DNA from: Tannerella sp.
GTDB lineage: Bacteria; Bacteroidota; Bacteroidia; Bacteroidales; Tannerellaceae
Assembly: GCA_031289445.1 (NCBI GenBank)
Contig: JAITPL010000068.1
Span: forward strand, 1-7,121
Length of the DNA: 7,121 nt
Direction: 5' to 3'
Shown here: positions 1,129-6,888 of the stretch, in pieces
Layout: the number at the start of each line of letters is the position of its first letter
How positions within the stretch are numbered: the stretch's first letter is position 1
Made by a program: the position numbers and the translations under genes
The notes under the pieces: generated by a model
The model's database searches: none
Told to the model about the DNA's origin: nothing
Seen by the model: the letters and a program-made list of their open reading frames with translations, nothing else

Positions 1129-1136
1129 TATATTTG
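1111..1136 (+). promoter_or_regulatory. Probable promoter of the efflux operon, with inverted repeat
   Basis: TATATTTG (1129-1136) matches the Bacteroidota -7 box TAnnTTTG and is followed by GCAG, placing the transcript start near 1140-1143. No good TTTG is found at the expected -33 position. A 6-bp inverted repeat (TATATG 1111-1116, CATATA 1127-1132, 10-nt spacer) overlaps the -7 box and could be an operator, but such AT-rich repeats also arise by chance. The leader would be about 18 nt, which supports the ATG at 1160 as start. Confidence 0.5.
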
Positions 1137-1159: not shown

Positions 1160-2266
1160 ATGAAGAAGATTTACTTATTGGGGGCGACGCTGATGTCGCT
1201 CATCGTGATTTCATGCGGGAAGCAGCAGACCGGCAGCAACCAGGTCGGCCAACCGCAATCGTATCCTACAGCGACGGTCGCCACAGGAGCGGCCGAACTG
1301 ATAACCTACTATCCGGCAACACTGCGCGGTAAGGAAGATATCGAGATACGTCCGCGCATCGACGGATTCATCGAGAATATACTTATCGACGAAGGCTCGG
1401 TGGTACGACAGGGACAGGTTTTGTTCAAGATAAACTCGCCACAGGCCGAGCAAGCGGTAACGACGGCGCAGGCAGCTGTTACCGTTGCCGATGCTCAACT
1501 TGCAACGGCCGAATTGAACGTCAGCCGCATGAAACCATTAGCCGACAAAGGCATTATCAGCAGCGTGCAGTTGGATGCTTATATCAATGCGCATAATGCC
1601 GCGAAGGCCTCAAGAGAGCAGGCTCTGGCGCAACTGAAAAACGCCAGGGCGACGCTGTCGTGGACCTCGGTAACAAGTCCTGTTAACGGACATGTCGGCG
1701 CAGTAACATACCGTAAGGGCAGTTTGGTGAATAGTCAGAACGTGCTGACTACCGTCGCCAACACCTCAACCGTCTTTGCTTATTTCTCGCTGAACGAGAA
1801 GGAGTTGGTCGAGTTTCTGGGGCGCTTTGAAGGCGTCACGCAGGCGGAAAAACTGAAGAAGGCTCCCGAAGTAACCCTTACCCTTGCCGATGGCTCTGTC
1901 TATCCATCGAAAGGACGCATCGAAACAATTGCCGGAGTGGTCAATATCACTACCGGAAGCGCCGGTTTGCGAGCCGAATTTCCGAATGCAGAAGGACTGC
2001 TTCGCAGCGGTACAAGCGGCAAGATAGCCCTCCCCGCATCCTACAGCGACGTGATAATCATTCCGCAGCGAGCCACTTTCGCGCAGCAGGACAAGACGCT
2101 GGTTTACGTCGTCGAAGAAGGCGTTGCCAATCAGCGCATTATAGATGTAACATCGACCCCCGACGGGCAGACATACATAGTACATTCCGGCTTGCGGGCA
2201 GGTGAACGCATAGTAACAGAGGGCGTTGCGACGCTTGTCAACGGAACAAAAATCGCTAATCAATAA
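1160..2266 (+). CDS. RND efflux periplasmic adaptor, lipoprotein (AcrA/MexA type)
   Basis: Membrane-fusion subunit that links the inner-membrane RND transporter to the outer-membrane channel in the periplasm. The 368 residues have the family order. There is a lipoprotein signal (MKKIYLLGAT..., lipobox VISC, Cys19). The lipoyl domain is split, with its first half at about 61-95 (IRPRIDGFIENIL, DEGSVVRQGQVLF) and its second at about 170-201 (TSPVNGHVG). The two halves flank an alpha-helical hairpin (about 96-168, with LADKGIISSVQLDA). A beta-barrel (about 203-292) and a membrane-proximal domain (about 296-365) follow. Length is normal for the family. A GTG seven codons upstream (1139) is in frame but sits at the predicted transcript start, so the ATG at 1160, which gives a clean signal peptide, is preferred. 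The residues after Cys19 (GKQQ) lack the acidic patch of Bacteroides surface lipoproteins, fitting a periplasm-facing anchor. The transporter gene starts 12 nt downstream, so the two form an operon. Substrate cannot be read from the sequence. Confidence 0.93.
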   Translation: MKKIYLLGATLMSLIVISCGKQQTGSNQVGQPQSYPTATVATGAAELITYYPATLRGKEDIEIRPRIDGFIENILIDEGSVVRQGQVLFKINSPQAEQAVTTAQAAVTVADAQLATAELNVSRMKPLADKGIISSVQLDAYINAHNAAKASREQALAQLKNARATLSWTSVTSPVNGHVGAVTYRKGSLVNSQNVLTTVANTSTVFAYFSLNEKELVEFLGRFEGVTQAEKLKKAPEVTLTLADGSVYPSKGRIETIAGVVNITTGSAGLRAEFPNAEGLLRSGTSGKIALPASYSDVIIIPQRATFAQQDKTLVYVVEEGVANQRIIDVTSTPDGQTYIVHSGLRAGERIVTEGVATLVNGTKIANQ

Positions 2267-2278
2267 ATTGCAAGCACT

Positions 2279-5200
2279 ATGTTAAAGACATTTATAGACA
2301 GGCCTGTACTATCGACGGTTATATCCATTTTGATTGTTGTTTTGGGCATCATCGGGCTGTTCATGCTTCCGGTTGAGCAGTATCCCGACATAGCGCCTCC
2401 AACAGTCAGAGTATCAGCTACATATTCGGGCGCTAATGCCGATGTGGTTATGAACTCGGTCGTCATTCCGCTTGAGGAGCAAATCAATGGCGTCGAGGGT
2501 ATGACCTATATGACGTCGTCGGCTTCAAATACCGGTAGCGCCACCATTTCAATCTTCTTCGAGAAAGGCATCAATCCTGACATTGCGGCTGTAAACGTAC
2601 AGAATCAGGTAGCCCGAGCCACGCCCCGACTGCCGCAGGAAGTTACGCAGGTAGGCGTTACCGTGCGCAAGCAGCAAAGCTCTACTATTCTGATGATTAA
2701 CTTCATGACCGATAATCCGGATTACGACCAGACTTTTCTTCAGAACTACGCTAATATCCACCTTCTTCCGCCTATCAAGCGCGTCAAGGGCGTGGGCGAC
2801 GCCAATGTTTACGGGGCGCGCGACTATTCGATGCGAATATGGCTGAAACCCGACGTGATGGCGGCTTACAGGATTACTACGCAAGAGGTCATTGCCGCGC
2901 TTCAGGAGCAGAATATCGAGGCGGCGCCGGGTGAACTCGGTCAGGAAAGCAAGCAAAGTTTTCAGTACACGCTTAAATATACCGGACGGCTCAAGACTGT
3001 TCCCGAATACGAGAATATCATCGTCCGCTCTGTTGACGGACAGGTGCTGCGCCTGCACGACGTGGCACAGGTCGAACTCGGAGCGCTCAACTATACCGTC
3101 CTCTCGAAAGTCGATGGCAACCAGTCTGTTACGATAGGTATCAATCAAACTGCAGGTTCGAATGCGCAGGAAGTTATCAACAATATCAAAGCCGGATTGA
3201 AAGAGGCCGAAGTCAACTTCCCTCCCGGCCTGAAAATCATCTACGTACAGGATGCCAACGAGTTTCTGGACGCTTCAGTCGAGAAAGTTCTGCATACCTT
3301 GGTAGAGGCTTTTCTGCTCGTGTTTGTTGTAGTGCTCATTTTCCTGCAAAATTTCCGCTCTACACTGATACCTGCAATTGCCGTGCCGGTCGCCATAGTG
3401 GGGACTTTCTTCTTCCTGCAACTGTTCGGTTTCTCGATTAACTTGCTGACTCTCTTTGCCTTAGTGCTTGCTATCGGTATAGTTGTGGATGATGCTATCG
3501 TGGTAGTCGAAGCTGTTCATGCACAGTTGGATGCCGGGATGAAAGACGCCCGCGAGGCTACGATAAAGGCGATGAAAGAAATTGCGCCCGCCATCGTTTC
3601 CATCACGCTTGTGATGGCGGCGGTCTTCGTTCCGGTCAGTTTTATAGGCGGCACTTCGGGAGTTTTCTACAAACAGTTTGGCTTGACGCTCGCCGTCGCC
3701 ATCCTGCTTTCGGCTGTTAACGCACTGACTCTCAGCCCCGCTCTTTGCGCTATTTTTCTGCACGGTAATCACTCGTCGGAGAAAAAGAAGAAAAATATAT
3801 TCAGCCGTTTTGCATCTGTGTTTAATACGTTTTTTGAGGCTGCAACCGCGCAGTATGGCCGCTCTCTGCATTTCCTCGGCAAACGGAATCATCGCTGGAT
3901 TACGGTAACGCTGATTCTCACTATGGCTGTCCTGCTTTTCACCCTGATGAAAATCATTCCTTCGGGCTTCGTGCCCCAGGAAGACAGCGGCGGCGTGATG
4001 GGAATGGTTACGCTTGCGCCGGGCGCTTCACTCGAACGCACTCAGGAAATAGCTCAACAAGTAACCGAAATAGCACAAAACATCGAACATGTCCTGAATG
4101 TAGCCTCACTTGTGGGGGTCAATTTCATGAGCGGACAAGGCAGTTCGTATGCGACGATTCAGATTAAAATGGATCCTTGGAATAGCCGTAAAATCACTAC
4201 CAATCAGGTCGCTGCCATATTGAAAGAAAAAACCGCCGATATCAAGGACGCGACGTTTATCTTTATGGGAACGCCGACCTTGCAGGGTTTCGGATTGAGC
4301 AACGGCGTAGAGTTGCAGATGCAAGACCGTACCGGCGGCGACATCAATCACTTCTTTGACGTAACTAACGACTTCCTTGCATCCATGCGCCAAAGACCGG
4401 AGGTGATGATGGCAATGACTACTTTCAATCCCAATTTCCCGCAAAAACAAATAGAGGCTAATGTCGCTAAAATAAAGGAGGCGGGATTGACGCTGGGGCA
4501 AGTGATGAGTACACTGCAGGCTTTCGTCGGCAGTATGTATGTGTCCGACTTCAATCTCTACGGCAAGCAATACCGCGTGATGGTGCAGGCCTTGCCCGAA
4601 TATCGCGAGCGGCTTGACAACCTCGACGGTTTCTTCGTTCGGACTGCTTCGGGCGAGATGGCGCCGGTAACTGAATTTCTTACTATTCAAGATGTTACAG
4701 CGCCTCAAACATTGAGCCGCTTCAATATGTATTCGTCGATGAGCATTACCATCATGCCCAATTATATTGGAGGATATGCTAATGGCGACGTACTTCGCGC
4801 TATTGATGAGGTCGCCGCGGAGATACTGCCCGATAATTTCACTTACGATTATTCGGGCATGACGCGCGAAGAAGTCAAGAGCGGCGGACAGACTTATATG
4901 ATTCTGGCTCTCTGTCTGATATTTGTTTACCTCTTGCTGGCGGCTCTGTATGAGAGTTATATCCTGCCTCTGGCGGTTATTTTCTCGCTACCGGTCGGCT
5001 TGGCAGGTGTATATATCTTTATATTCGTCGGAATGTCGTTTGGAACAGGTATTGTAAACAATATCTACGTCCAGATTTCGCTGATAATGCTGATTGGAAT
5101 GTTGGCCAAAAATGCCATTTTGATTGTCGAATACGCCATTCAGCGACGGCGACAGGGATTGAGCATTGTCGAGGCCGCAGTAAACGGCGCCGTTGCCCGA

Positions 5201-6817
5201 CTGCGACCTATCCTGATGACCTCTTTTGCCCTGATATTCGGACTTATGCCGCTGGCTATGGCGTCGGGCGCAGGCGCTATCGGCAACCGCTCAATAGGTA
5301 TCTCGGCCATTGGCGGAATGTTGATTGGAACCTTCCTCGGAATACTTGTCGTGCCTTCGCTTTTCATTATCTTTCAGTTGATTCAGGAACGCTTCAGCAA
5401 GTCGGGACTGGTCAATGCGGCAAAGATGATTGCGGTTGTCAGCGTCCTTTCTTTAAGTATTTCATCGTGTCAGGTCTTTAATAAATATCAGTCGCCGGAG
5501 GTTGATACAACAGACTTGTATCGCGCAGAATATAACTCCAATGACACGACTACGGTCGCCTCGCTTCACTGGTCTGATTATTTTATCGACCCGACACTGC
5601 AAAAACTTATAGAAGAGGGACTTAGTGCAAATTTTGACCTGCGGACGGCTTATTTTCGCGTGGAGGAGGCTGCGGCGGCGCTCTCAGTTGCGAGGGCGGC
5701 ATATTTCCCCACTGCAGGGATTGCAGGGCAAGCTACTCATTCGCGTACAAGCGAGAAGAACGGCGTAACGGATGCATTGGGCTATGGCAGCAATCGCTAT
5801 CAGTTAGGGCTGGCCGTGCAGTGGGAGATAGACATCTGGGGCAAACTCAACCGTCGCTCTCGCGCAAGTTTGGCTCAATATCTGCAAAGTATTGAATATA
5901 AGCGACTTATACAGACTACTCTTATATCAAATATTGCCGCTTCATACTTTACGCTGATGGCGCTTGACGAACAACTGCATATCTCGCTCGAAACGATAGA
6001 GGTATTGAAGCAAAACGCTGTTTCGATGCAGGCGATGATGGATGCCGGTCTGCTAACTGCCGCCGCTGTCGAACAAAGCCGTGCACTGTTGGCTTCGACA
6101 CAGGTCTCGGCCTTAAATTTGGAGGTTTCAATCCGCAAGTTGGAGAACGCTCTCTCAATTGTTGTAGGGCGCAAACCGGGCGCTATCGACAGGCAGTTGC
6201 TATCTACATGGACAGCTCCTTCAGCTCCATTGTCGCGTGGCGTACCTGCACAGATGCTTGCCTTGCGTCCAGACGTGCGCACCGCCGAATTGCAGTTGCG
6301 TTCGGCCTTCGAGTTGCGCAATGCCGCGCAGGCCGCGCTTTATCCCTCGCTGACGCTCACTTCCGGCACTATGGTTGGTTATGGCGCTTCGTCGTTCTCC
6401 GATTTCTTCAAGCCTGAAAACCTTCTGGCTAATGTTATCGGCGGCCTGACGCAGCCTCTCTTTGCGGGCAATCAACTGCGTGCACAAGTGAAGATTACGA
6501 AAGCGCAGGAGCAGGAAGCTCTGACTGCTTTTGAGAAAGCGACATTGACGGCTGCGCAAGAGGTTTCGGATGTGTTGTTTGTTTACGACAAGGCGCAAGA
6601 GAAGACGGTTTTTCGTCGCGAGCAGATAGAGTCGCTACGCAAGTCGGTTGACTATACCGGCGAACTGCTAAGCGCCGGCGAAGCTACCTATCTGGAGGTT
6701 TTGACTGCCCGCCAGAGCTACCTGACCGCCCAGCTTGCTTCCGTCAACGACACTCTCGAAAAAGCTCAAGCAGTAATCGACCTCTACCGTGCTCTCGGCG
6801 GTGGTGGAGAAAACTAA
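2279..6817 (+). CDS. HAE-1 type RND transporter fused to NodT/OprM-type outer-membrane factor
   Basis: One uninterrupted 1512-codon frame that encodes two normally separate proteins. Residues about 1-1049 form a complete AcrB-like proton/drug antiporter, close to AcrB in length. They comprise TM1 (about 10-30), a first periplasmic domain, TM2-6 (about 341-492), a lysine-rich cytoplasmic loop (about 495-515), TM7 (about 540-561), a second periplasmic domain and TM8-12 (about 875-1036). The proton-relay residues are present: D404 and D405 in TM4 (GIVVDDAIVVVE), K944 in TM10 (MLAKNAILIVEYA) and T981 in TM11, matching AcrB D407, D408, K940 and T978. The loop FVPQEDSGG after TM7 fits HAE-1 rather than metal-type RND proteins. 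Residues 1050-1512 are a complete outer-membrane factor, described separately. There is no stop, frameshift or long linker at the join. The gene is 12 nt behind the adaptor, so the two encode a full tripartite pump. Probable role: export of hydrophobic or amphiphilic toxic compounds; the exact substrate is unknown. Confidence 0.93.
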   Translation: MLKTFIDRPVLSTVISILIVVLGIIGLFMLPVEQYPDIAPPTVRVSATYSGANADVVMNSVVIPLEEQINGVEGMTYMTSSASNTGSATISIFFEKGINPDIAAVNVQNQVARATPRLPQEVTQVGVTVRKQQSSTILMINFMTDNPDYDQTFLQNYANIHLLPPIKRVKGVGDANVYGARDYSMRIWLKPDVMAAYRITTQEVIAALQEQNIEAAPGELGQESKQSFQYTLKYTGRLKTVPEYENIIVRSVDGQVLRLHDVAQVELGALNYTVLSKVDGNQSVTIGINQTAGSNAQEVINNIKAGLKEAEVNFPPGLKIIYVQDANEFLDASVEKVLHTLVEAFLLVFVVVLIFLQNFRSTLIPAIAVPVAIVGTFFFLQLFGFSINLLTLFALVLAIGIVVDDAIVVVEAVHAQLDAGMKDAREATIKAMKEIAPAIVSITLVMAAVFVPVSFIGGTSGVFYKQFGLTLAVAILLSAVNALTLSPALCAIFLHGNHSSEKKKKNIFSRFASVFNTFFEAATAQYGRSLHFLGKRNHRWITVTLILTMAVLLFTLMKIIPSGFVPQEDSGGVMGMVTLAPGASLERTQEIAQQVTEIAQNIEHVLNVASLVGVNFMSGQGSSYATIQIKMDPWNSRKITTNQVAAILKEKTADIKDATFIFMGTPTLQGFGLSNGVELQMQDRTGGDINHFFDVTNDFLASMRQRPEVMMAMTTFNPNFPQKQIEANVAKIKEAGLTLGQVMSTLQAFVGSMYVSDFNLYGKQYRVMVQALPEYRERLDNLDGFFVRTASGEMAPVTEFLTIQDVTAPQTLSRFNMYSSMSITIMPNYIGGYANGDVLRAIDEVAAEILPDNFTYDYSGMTREEVKSGGQTYMILALCLIFVYLLLAALYESYILPLAVIFSLPVGLAGVYIFIFVGMSFGTGIVNNIYVQISLIMLIGMLAKNAILIVEYAIQRRRQGLSIVEAAVNGAVARLRPILMTSFALIFGLMPLAMASGAGAIGNRSIGISAIGGMLIGTFLGILVVPSLFIIFQLIQERFSKSGLVNAAKMIAVVSVLSLSISSCQVFNKYQSPEVDTTDLYRAEYNSNDTTTVASLHWSDYFIDPTLQKLIEEGLSANFDLRTAYFRVEEAAAALSVARAAYFPTAGIAGQATHSRTSEKNGVTDALGYGSNRYQLGLAVQWEIDIWGKLNRRSRASLAQYLQSIEYKRLIQTTLISNIAASYFTLMALDEQLHISLETIEVLKQNAVSMQAMMDAGLLTAAAVEQSRALLASTQVSALNLEVSIRKLENALSIVVGRKPGAIDRQLLSTWTAPSAPLSRGVPAQMLALRPDVRTAELQLRSAFELRNAAQAALYPSLTLTSGTMVGYGASSFSDFFKPENLLANVIGGLTQPLFAGNQLRAQVKITKAQEQEALTAFEKATLTAAQEVSDVLFVYDKAQEKTVFRREQIESLRKSVDYTGELLSAGEATYLEVLTARQSYLTAQLASVNDTLEKAQAVIDLYRALGGGGEN
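5426..6817 (+). other. Outer-membrane factor half of the fusion, with its own lipoprotein signal
   Basis: Codons 1050-1512 (463 residues, the usual length of a free OprM/NodT-type channel). They begin with Met1050, preceded by Lys1049, then a hydrophobic run (IAVVSVLSLSIS) and a lipobox ending in Cys1064 (codon 5468-5470). This is what a free OMF lipoprotein gene would start with. The mature part has the two OEP repeats. The first contains WSDYFIDPTLQKLIEEGL and AYFPT; the second contains LRPDVRTAELQL (1329-1340), ALYPSLTLT and QPLFAGNQLRAQ. These are typical OMF helix/strand segments. The trimer would form the beta-barrel and periplasmic tunnel of the pump. It could be released by signal peptidase II from the fusion or be made from the internal ATG. 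No Shine-Dalgarno is visible before that ATG, which is uninformative in this phylum. Confidence 0.85.
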
Positions 6818-6846: not shown

Positions 6847-6888
6847 GTAATCGACCTTTACCGTGCCCTTGGCGGTGGTGGAGAGTAG
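6847..6888 (+). pseudogene. C-terminal remnant of a second outer-membrane factor
   Basis: Thirteen codons plus TAG that repeat the end of the preceding gene (VIDLYRALGGGGE, then stop). Compared with 6773-6817, four codons differ, all at the third base and all synonymous (CTC/CTT, GCT/GCC, CTC/CTT, GAA/GAG), and one Asn codon before the stop is missing. Upstream similarity fades within about 20 bases (a GGCTACAG stretch may correspond to GCTCAAGCA). It is best explained as the 3' tail of a diverged paralogous OMF gene whose body was lost, rather than a fresh 74-bp tandem duplication. It has no start of its own and is not expected to be expressed. Confidence 0.7.

Follow-up and report, generated by a model that had tools for sequence, protein, structure and literature searches.

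The drug efflux systems MexAB-OprM and AcrAB-TolC are composed of three components, an HAE-1 RND transporter, an adaptor whose gene lies just upstream, and an outer-membrane channel, and their transporter and channel are encoded by separate genes. RND transporters end in the cytoplasm, as known from AcrB. In MexAB-OprM a distance of 23 nm separates the two membranes, MexB protrudes into the periplasm by 7 nm, and the periplasmic part of OprM measures 10 nm; MexB and OprM do not touch and leave a gap of ~6 nm (PMC4754349, in the available part of the source). OprM has a lipidated N-terminal Cys, which is anchored in the outer membrane, according to the accessible portion of that report (PMC4790312). 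The preliminary description of the locus studied here stated that transporter-channel fusions are known among the metal-type CusA/CzcA proteins of Bacteroidota, and this was borne out: a CusA/CzcA match above the cut-off was present in 120 of 149 class genomes, and 29 of the 30 best-scoring loci are single frames of more than 1,300 aa, while many lower-scoring matches are unfused frames near 1,040 aa. Their joins consist of a hydrophobic stretch followed by Ala or Gly and then Gln in 29/29 cases (27 Ala, 2 Gly; one locus was counted as Gly-Gln though an Ala-Gln lies five residues on). This Gln at +1 matches the “Q-rule,” by which the substrates of Bacteroidetes signal peptidase I mostly begin with Gln (PMC5837995, as far as the source is available).

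The locus described below resembles these metal-type fusions in having an RND transporter and a channel in one frame with a signal-peptide-like join, but they score above the CusA/CzcA cut-off (TIGR00914), and their join is type I-like instead of a lipobox. For a polytopic inner-membrane protein followed by a cut internal signal peptide and an exported protein, we take the fbcH cytochrome b/c1 polyprotein of Bradyrhizobium as a precedent; its product belongs to a respiratory complex and involves type I signal peptidase, and it is not an efflux pump. In polytopic dual Sec/Tat proteins, an internal signal sequence after earlier helices likewise exports a C-terminal domain; unlike what is proposed here, these proteins are Tat-dependent and, in the available part of the source, are not described as cut in two (PMC5449189).

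We analyzed a stretch of 7,121 nucleotides from Tannerella sp. (contig JAITPL010000068.1; here called the window), which comes from a 1.68-Mb assembly that is 61% complete. The forward strand contains a single stop-free frame of 1,512 aa, from the ATG at 2279 to the stop ending at 6817, in which Pfam places ACR_tran at residues 1 to 1032 and two OEP matches in the C-terminal part (Table 1). The adaptor is a gene of its own, whose stop (2264 to 2266) lies 12 bases 5' of the ATG of the fused frame, so that the arrangement given in the preliminary description, transporter and channel in one frame with the adaptor separate, is confirmed. An alternative, longer adaptor frame starts from GTG 1139, and on this frame the TIGR01730 score was 233.1 (cut-off, 94.9). 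The TAnnTTTG motif of TATATTTG is presumably a Bacteroidota promoter element.

Table 1. Features of the transporter-channel locus and their positions in the window
Feature	Position	Strand	Basis
Promoter-like element TAnnTTTG of Bacteroidota, TATATTTG	1129..1136	+	Pattern scan; upstream of adaptor gene
Periplasmic adaptor (RND_mfp), lipoprotein-like (MKKIYLLGATLMSLIVISC)	1160..2266	+	Pfam, TIGR01730
HAE-1 RND transporter domain, residues 1-1032	2279..5374	+	ACR_tran, TIGR00915, proton-relay letters
Transporter C-terminal tail QLIQERFSKSGLVNAAK, expected cytoplasmic; prospective signal-peptide n-region	5375..5425	+	Junction comparison; topology as in AcrB
Hydrophobic h-region MIAVVSVLSLS, predicted core of the signal peptide and 13th membrane segment	5426..5458	+	Hydropathy
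Lipobox I-S-S-C; predicted LspA cut S1063/C1064	5459..5470	+	Junction conservation; OprM alignment
Mature outer-membrane channel (OEP/NodT, OprM-like), residues 1064-1512 plus stop	5468..6817	+	Pfam, TIGR01845, OprM alignment

By profile score, the transporter of the window is of the HAE-1 (drug) type. The fused frame exceeds the TIGR00915 cut-off (1025.8 versus 940.35) and remains below those of CusA/CzcA TIGR00914 (328.6 versus 701.45) and RND_permease_1 NF000282 (1130.7 versus 1250). D404, D405, K944, and T981 are all present at those positions; we take them, from AcrB and as assigned in the preliminary description, to be the proton-relay residues, and the drug-type assignment made there is upheld. 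The C-terminal part of the frame, the OprM/NodT-like channel, was likewise recognized correctly (TIGR01845, 273.2 versus 210.05). The nearest sequence relatives in the PDB are CmeB and other RND drug pumps for the whole frame, and SilC, OprM, and CusC for the channel part. TIGR00915 was also scored on five fused relatives, of which P0132, P0216, P0127, and the L080 frame lie above the cut-off and P0131 narrowly below it (931.6 versus 940.35); the remaining fused proteins are termed drug-type through their descent from the searches and their source names. P0134 and P0135 lie far away on the first (FastTree) tree.

The source assembly is not only incomplete but divided into 234 contigs, and an assembly, base-calling, or binning error could in principle unite two separate genes. 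A stop or frameshift at the join in close relatives was named in the preliminary description as the sign of such an error, and what was found instead is the same stop-free frame in 15 of 36 same-genus genomes, with 77 to 92% identity over the matched part among the top-ranked matches listed. All 15 joins were confirmed by reading the loci; one of the open frames is a fragment at a contig edge (G029), and another is open as far as the contig end (G012). In a second, genome-contig collection, which overlaps the same genomes and therefore does not provide independent counts, 19 of 23 loci are fused, and many database proteins are fused too, including named Chitinophaga and Pedobacter records. Because independent genomes carry the same frame, an error is refuted, its chance being negligible, and the transporter-channel frame is genuine.

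Eighteen of these 23 loci are in Tannerella sp. records; apart from the fused ones, two are separate (L074 in Parabacteroides sp. PH5-46 and L076 in Rikenellaceae) and two show no channel within the locus, one of which (L077) stops at a contig edge. The search for homologues with both domains that the preliminary description had proposed yielded further fused drug-type frames, representatives of which were placed on a tree of transporter domains. A protein search on residues 1060 to 1512, with candidates limited to proteins of ~831 aa or more that share most words, returned at least 35 proteins, every one with both Pfam domains. The same kind of search from Chitinophaga alhagiae P0132, which scored only candidates sharing most words, returned at least 170 proteins; the 120 of 170 that were listed include C. 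filiformis, C. sancti, C. agri, Pedobacter steynii, and Parapedobacter. Across 295 genomes of the class, the returned loci and 18 further regions were read, which does not amount to a census. An open-frame length of ~1,500 was discarded as a sign of fusion, since L078, L081, and L125 to L135 are separate genes when read. One genome (G016) carries two unlike drug-type fusions, the window-type L032 and L079 (G016:C129), the latter only 38% identical.

The preliminary description left open whether a drug-type version had been described. Fused RND-channel proteins as such, the drug type included, are already in databases, many of the latter under the names HAE1 exporter or RND permease. Among the titles and abstract openings of the matches listed, a range outside which most subscription journals fall, no paper on drug-type fusions or on RND-channel cleavage was found, a weak indication that none exists.

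The transporter and the channel are connected by ERFSKSGLVNAAK-MIAVVSVLSLSISS/C1064QVFNKYQSP, where the slash marks the predicted cut. According to the preliminary description they follow each other without stop or linker; there is indeed no stop, but ~22 to 31 residues with the anatomy of a signal peptide separate the transporter end (residues ~1032 to 1041) from the start of the mature channel at Cys1064. Scored by motif and hydropathy, not by a trained predictor, residues ~1049 to 1064 form an internal signal peptide with a cleavage motif, in which Lys1049 is followed by hydrophobic residues 1050 to 1060 and then by the lipobox I-S-S-C1064. The join starts with Lys/Arg, which fits a cytoplasmic transporter C terminus. 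Alignment with OprM, likewise a channel of the lipoprotein type, puts Cys1064 (residue 29 of the piece translated from 5384 to 6814) on residue 1, the Cys of the mature OprM chain; at sequence level, the lipoprotein Cys is thus at the mature N terminus expected of a NodT/OprM-type channel.

This arrangement is retained in nearly all relatives. Among 37 distinct junctions of the window's family, Cys and the Ser at −1 are invariant (37/37 each), Ser at −2 is found in 36 and Gly at −4 in 33. By contrast, hydrophobic and small residues replace one another at positions −5 to −14, except that −10 is mostly Gly; the pattern looks like that of a lipobox under selection, not of a free linker. (L072 stands outside this set, and nine reverse-strand loci stand outside the start-codon set considered below; all ten junctions have the Cys.) Of 43 distinct fused drug-type entries in a first set, 41 have the Cys, and the other two, P0131 and P0133, have a type I-like site (..PAQ and ..SAQ) instead. 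The Chitinophaga-type set (P0132, P0136 to P0254), which comprises Chitinophaga, Pedobacter, Parapedobacter, and other drug-type frames, shares with the window the architecture and the Cys after a hydrophobic stretch; the Cys rule is satisfied in 116 of 120 entries, and the other four were assigned by eye, with a Cys beyond the range of the rule in P0160, P0161, and P0167 and a Cys after Gln, in a poor lipobox (SQC), in P0180. The union of both sets, to which P0132 is common, thus has the Cys in 160 of 162 fused drug-type entries; the loci are at most 66% identical to proteins within this union, and the window is 84% identical.

Where such pumps have a separate channel, it begins with the same lipoprotein signal peptide in 44 of 44 cases by a looser rule (35 of 44 by the strict lipobox pattern). 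In six more, the Cys was found by eye in four; of the other two, L136 has an unreadable start, and the site of L082, a remote TolC-like channel, is type I-like. In contrast, no hydrophobic segment follows TM12 in 66 separate transporters aligned to the window, an alignment that also sets the position of TM12; past it, the highest 13-residue hydropathy is 0.48 (63 of 66 tails have at least 13 residues, three are shorter), versus 2.28 in the window. Since separate transporters are without the segment and separate channels have it, the segment was brought in by the channel and retained thereafter. That each fusion class keeps the kind of signal of its own channel is shown, on these motifs, for the drug type only.

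We propose, with a probability of roughly 0.8, that the product of this one gene, an HAE-1 transporter linked to an OprM-type channel via a lipoprotein signal peptide, is a polyprotein that LspA cuts at Cys1064 into two separate pump subunits. Translation would start with the 12-helix transporter, whose charged cytoplasmic tail would then serve as the n-region, and the h-region would insert N-in/C-out as a 13th segment. Sec would export the channel, Lgt would lipidate Cys1064, and LspA would cut before it, giving a transporter of ~116 kDa and a lipoprotein channel of ~49 kDa. The channel would proceed to the outer membrane as a lipoprotein, the spent signal peptide would stay behind as an additional segment at the C terminus of the transporter, and the separate adaptor would assemble the pump as usual; the gain would be 1:1 synthesis of two trimeric partners. 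LspA is encoded in 34 of the 37 genomes searched, the window's included. Lgt was found in 32 of the 37; it was not found in the window's own, 61% complete genome. An AlphaFold prediction of residues 1013 to 1512 (mean pLDDT of 61, 10 sequences) was too weak to use.

The unbroken frame could also mean that the chain is never cut and functions as a covalent transporter-channel protein, in which the hydrophobic join forms a lasting 13th helix; we regard this as quite improbable. Such a helix would give no reason for the lipobox Cys and the −1 Ser to be invariant, and the first Pfam OEP match (nt 5597, residue ~1107) begins only ~43 residues after Cys1064. An extended chain covers ~0.35 nm per residue. 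The ~43 residues would therefore span at most ~15 nm, whereas the midpoint of the channel's periplasmic part is ~18 nm away (7 + 6 + half of 10); these figures are sums of lengths taken from the available part of the source and not a model, and the membranes of MexAB-OprM are 23 nm apart (PMC4754349). Furthermore, without a cut the very Cys whose OprM equivalent, in the accessible portion of the source, is anchored in the outer membrane (PMC4790312) would be kept at the outer face of the inner membrane, and hence the chain is probably cut. The Chitinophaga-type fusions point somewhat the other way: their uncharged stretch between the last charge and the Cys is longer (median 17, range 12 to 24, 116 proteins, reaching 20 or more residues in some) than that of separate channels (median 13.5, range 10 to 18, 44 proteins), which appears closer to a lasting membrane helix and counts against cleavage. 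They also form a clade separate from the window's, with separate forms between (P0132 represents the group on the tree). Two cleaved products are favored by the combination of a lipobox at the join, retained almost throughout, with the 23-nm spacing given in the available text. The argument of the preliminary description that fusing the two 1:1 partners makes stoichiometric sense survives insofar as the joined partners occur at 1:1 in known pumps; one covalently joined working product is not supported.

It is also unlikely, in our estimate, that the channel is additionally, or exclusively, made from an internal start codon and that the join is incidental. An in-frame ATG does lie at 5426 in the window, 14 codons before the Cys, making it one of 5 junctions, out of 20 distinct ones, in which an ATG occupies −13 or −14. 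However, initiation at 5426 would give a signal peptide without a positive side chain, and start codons are not kept in place elsewhere: L059 has one only at −8, L060 at −30 and −8, and L062 at −30 and −20, and the 30 codons preceding the Cys contain neither ATG nor GTG nor TTG in 3 of the 20 junctions (L066, L070, and L072), where non-standard starts are possible. Cleavage of one long precursor by LspA is the reading we favor.

On an IQ-TREE phylogeny of 69 transporter domains (28 fused, 41 separate), the fused and separate labels change at least 13 times, and 11 of these changes are forced by well-supported branches. The set corresponds to 102 rows less the partial fusion P0024 and 32 long-branched, redundant, or thinned rows, and on this tree the long branches of P0131 and P0128 meet; the first FastTree tree of all 102 rows, with P0024 labelled separate, gave 14 and 11 changes. 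The phylogeny requires at least 11 switches, gains and losses being indistinguishable, and because of these switches the lipobox was probably retained repeatedly and is not one shared relic. The sequences around the join illustrate both states. In the main fused clade, the transporter passes from ...SKSGLVNAAK into the h-region; in P0019, the h-region follows ...SGLVNSNDEVIRK, so that the join point differs from that of the main clade. In L074, a separate relative within the window's family, the transporter ends with ...SKSGLINTNDELIGSKND, and the channel gene comes after it. L071 (1935 to 5078, 90% identity) has a stop at the join position, its transporter ending in SKSGIVNG with no channel gene after it in the locus; because it sits inside the fused clade, its channel part was probably lost secondarily.

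The system in the window can be read as an HAE-1 counterpart of the metal-type fusions, reinterpreted as a polyprotein for signal peptidase. More broadly, Bacteroidota have quite probably turned efflux transporter and channel genes into polyproteins repeatedly, LspA cutting the drug type and signal peptidase I the metal type, with the spent signal left as a 13th helix and the RND-TolC fusions being precursors. If this is true, widespread “fusion” pumps in databases have been misread, and bacterial polyproteins are cut by ordinary signal peptidases; inner- and outer-membrane subunits are synthesized at a fixed 1:1 ratio from one message; and these RND transporters possess a 13th segment that the 12-helix picture does not contain. 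Exact N termini (a lipidated Cys, or pyroglutamate) are then predicted and can be searched for in existing proteomes, and the natural switches between fused and separate forms allow the worth of the coupling to be tested.

Several other features were recorded alongside the locus. A 1,563-aa frame in the window's genome (G000:C100:2556-7247, forward strand; L006, L173) was considered as a second transporter-channel fusion and rejected, as it joins an RND permease (ACR_tran, residues 2 to 1025) and an ABC ATPase (ABC_tran, 1293 to 1437) in one protein; by search match, 11 same-genus genomes and one of another family, among 36 further genomes, have a full-query, stop-free match to it. In the window itself, positions 172 to 471 and 499 to 798 form a tandem direct repeat of 300 nt (92% identical) containing two similar 80-aa frames on the minus strand (175 to 417 and 502 to 744) with no Pfam match. 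The last codons of the channel (6773 to 6810) are repeated after its stop at 6847 to 6884, with 92% identity over 38 nt and VIDLYRALGGGGE-stop again, perhaps left over from a duplication or from a second channel gene.
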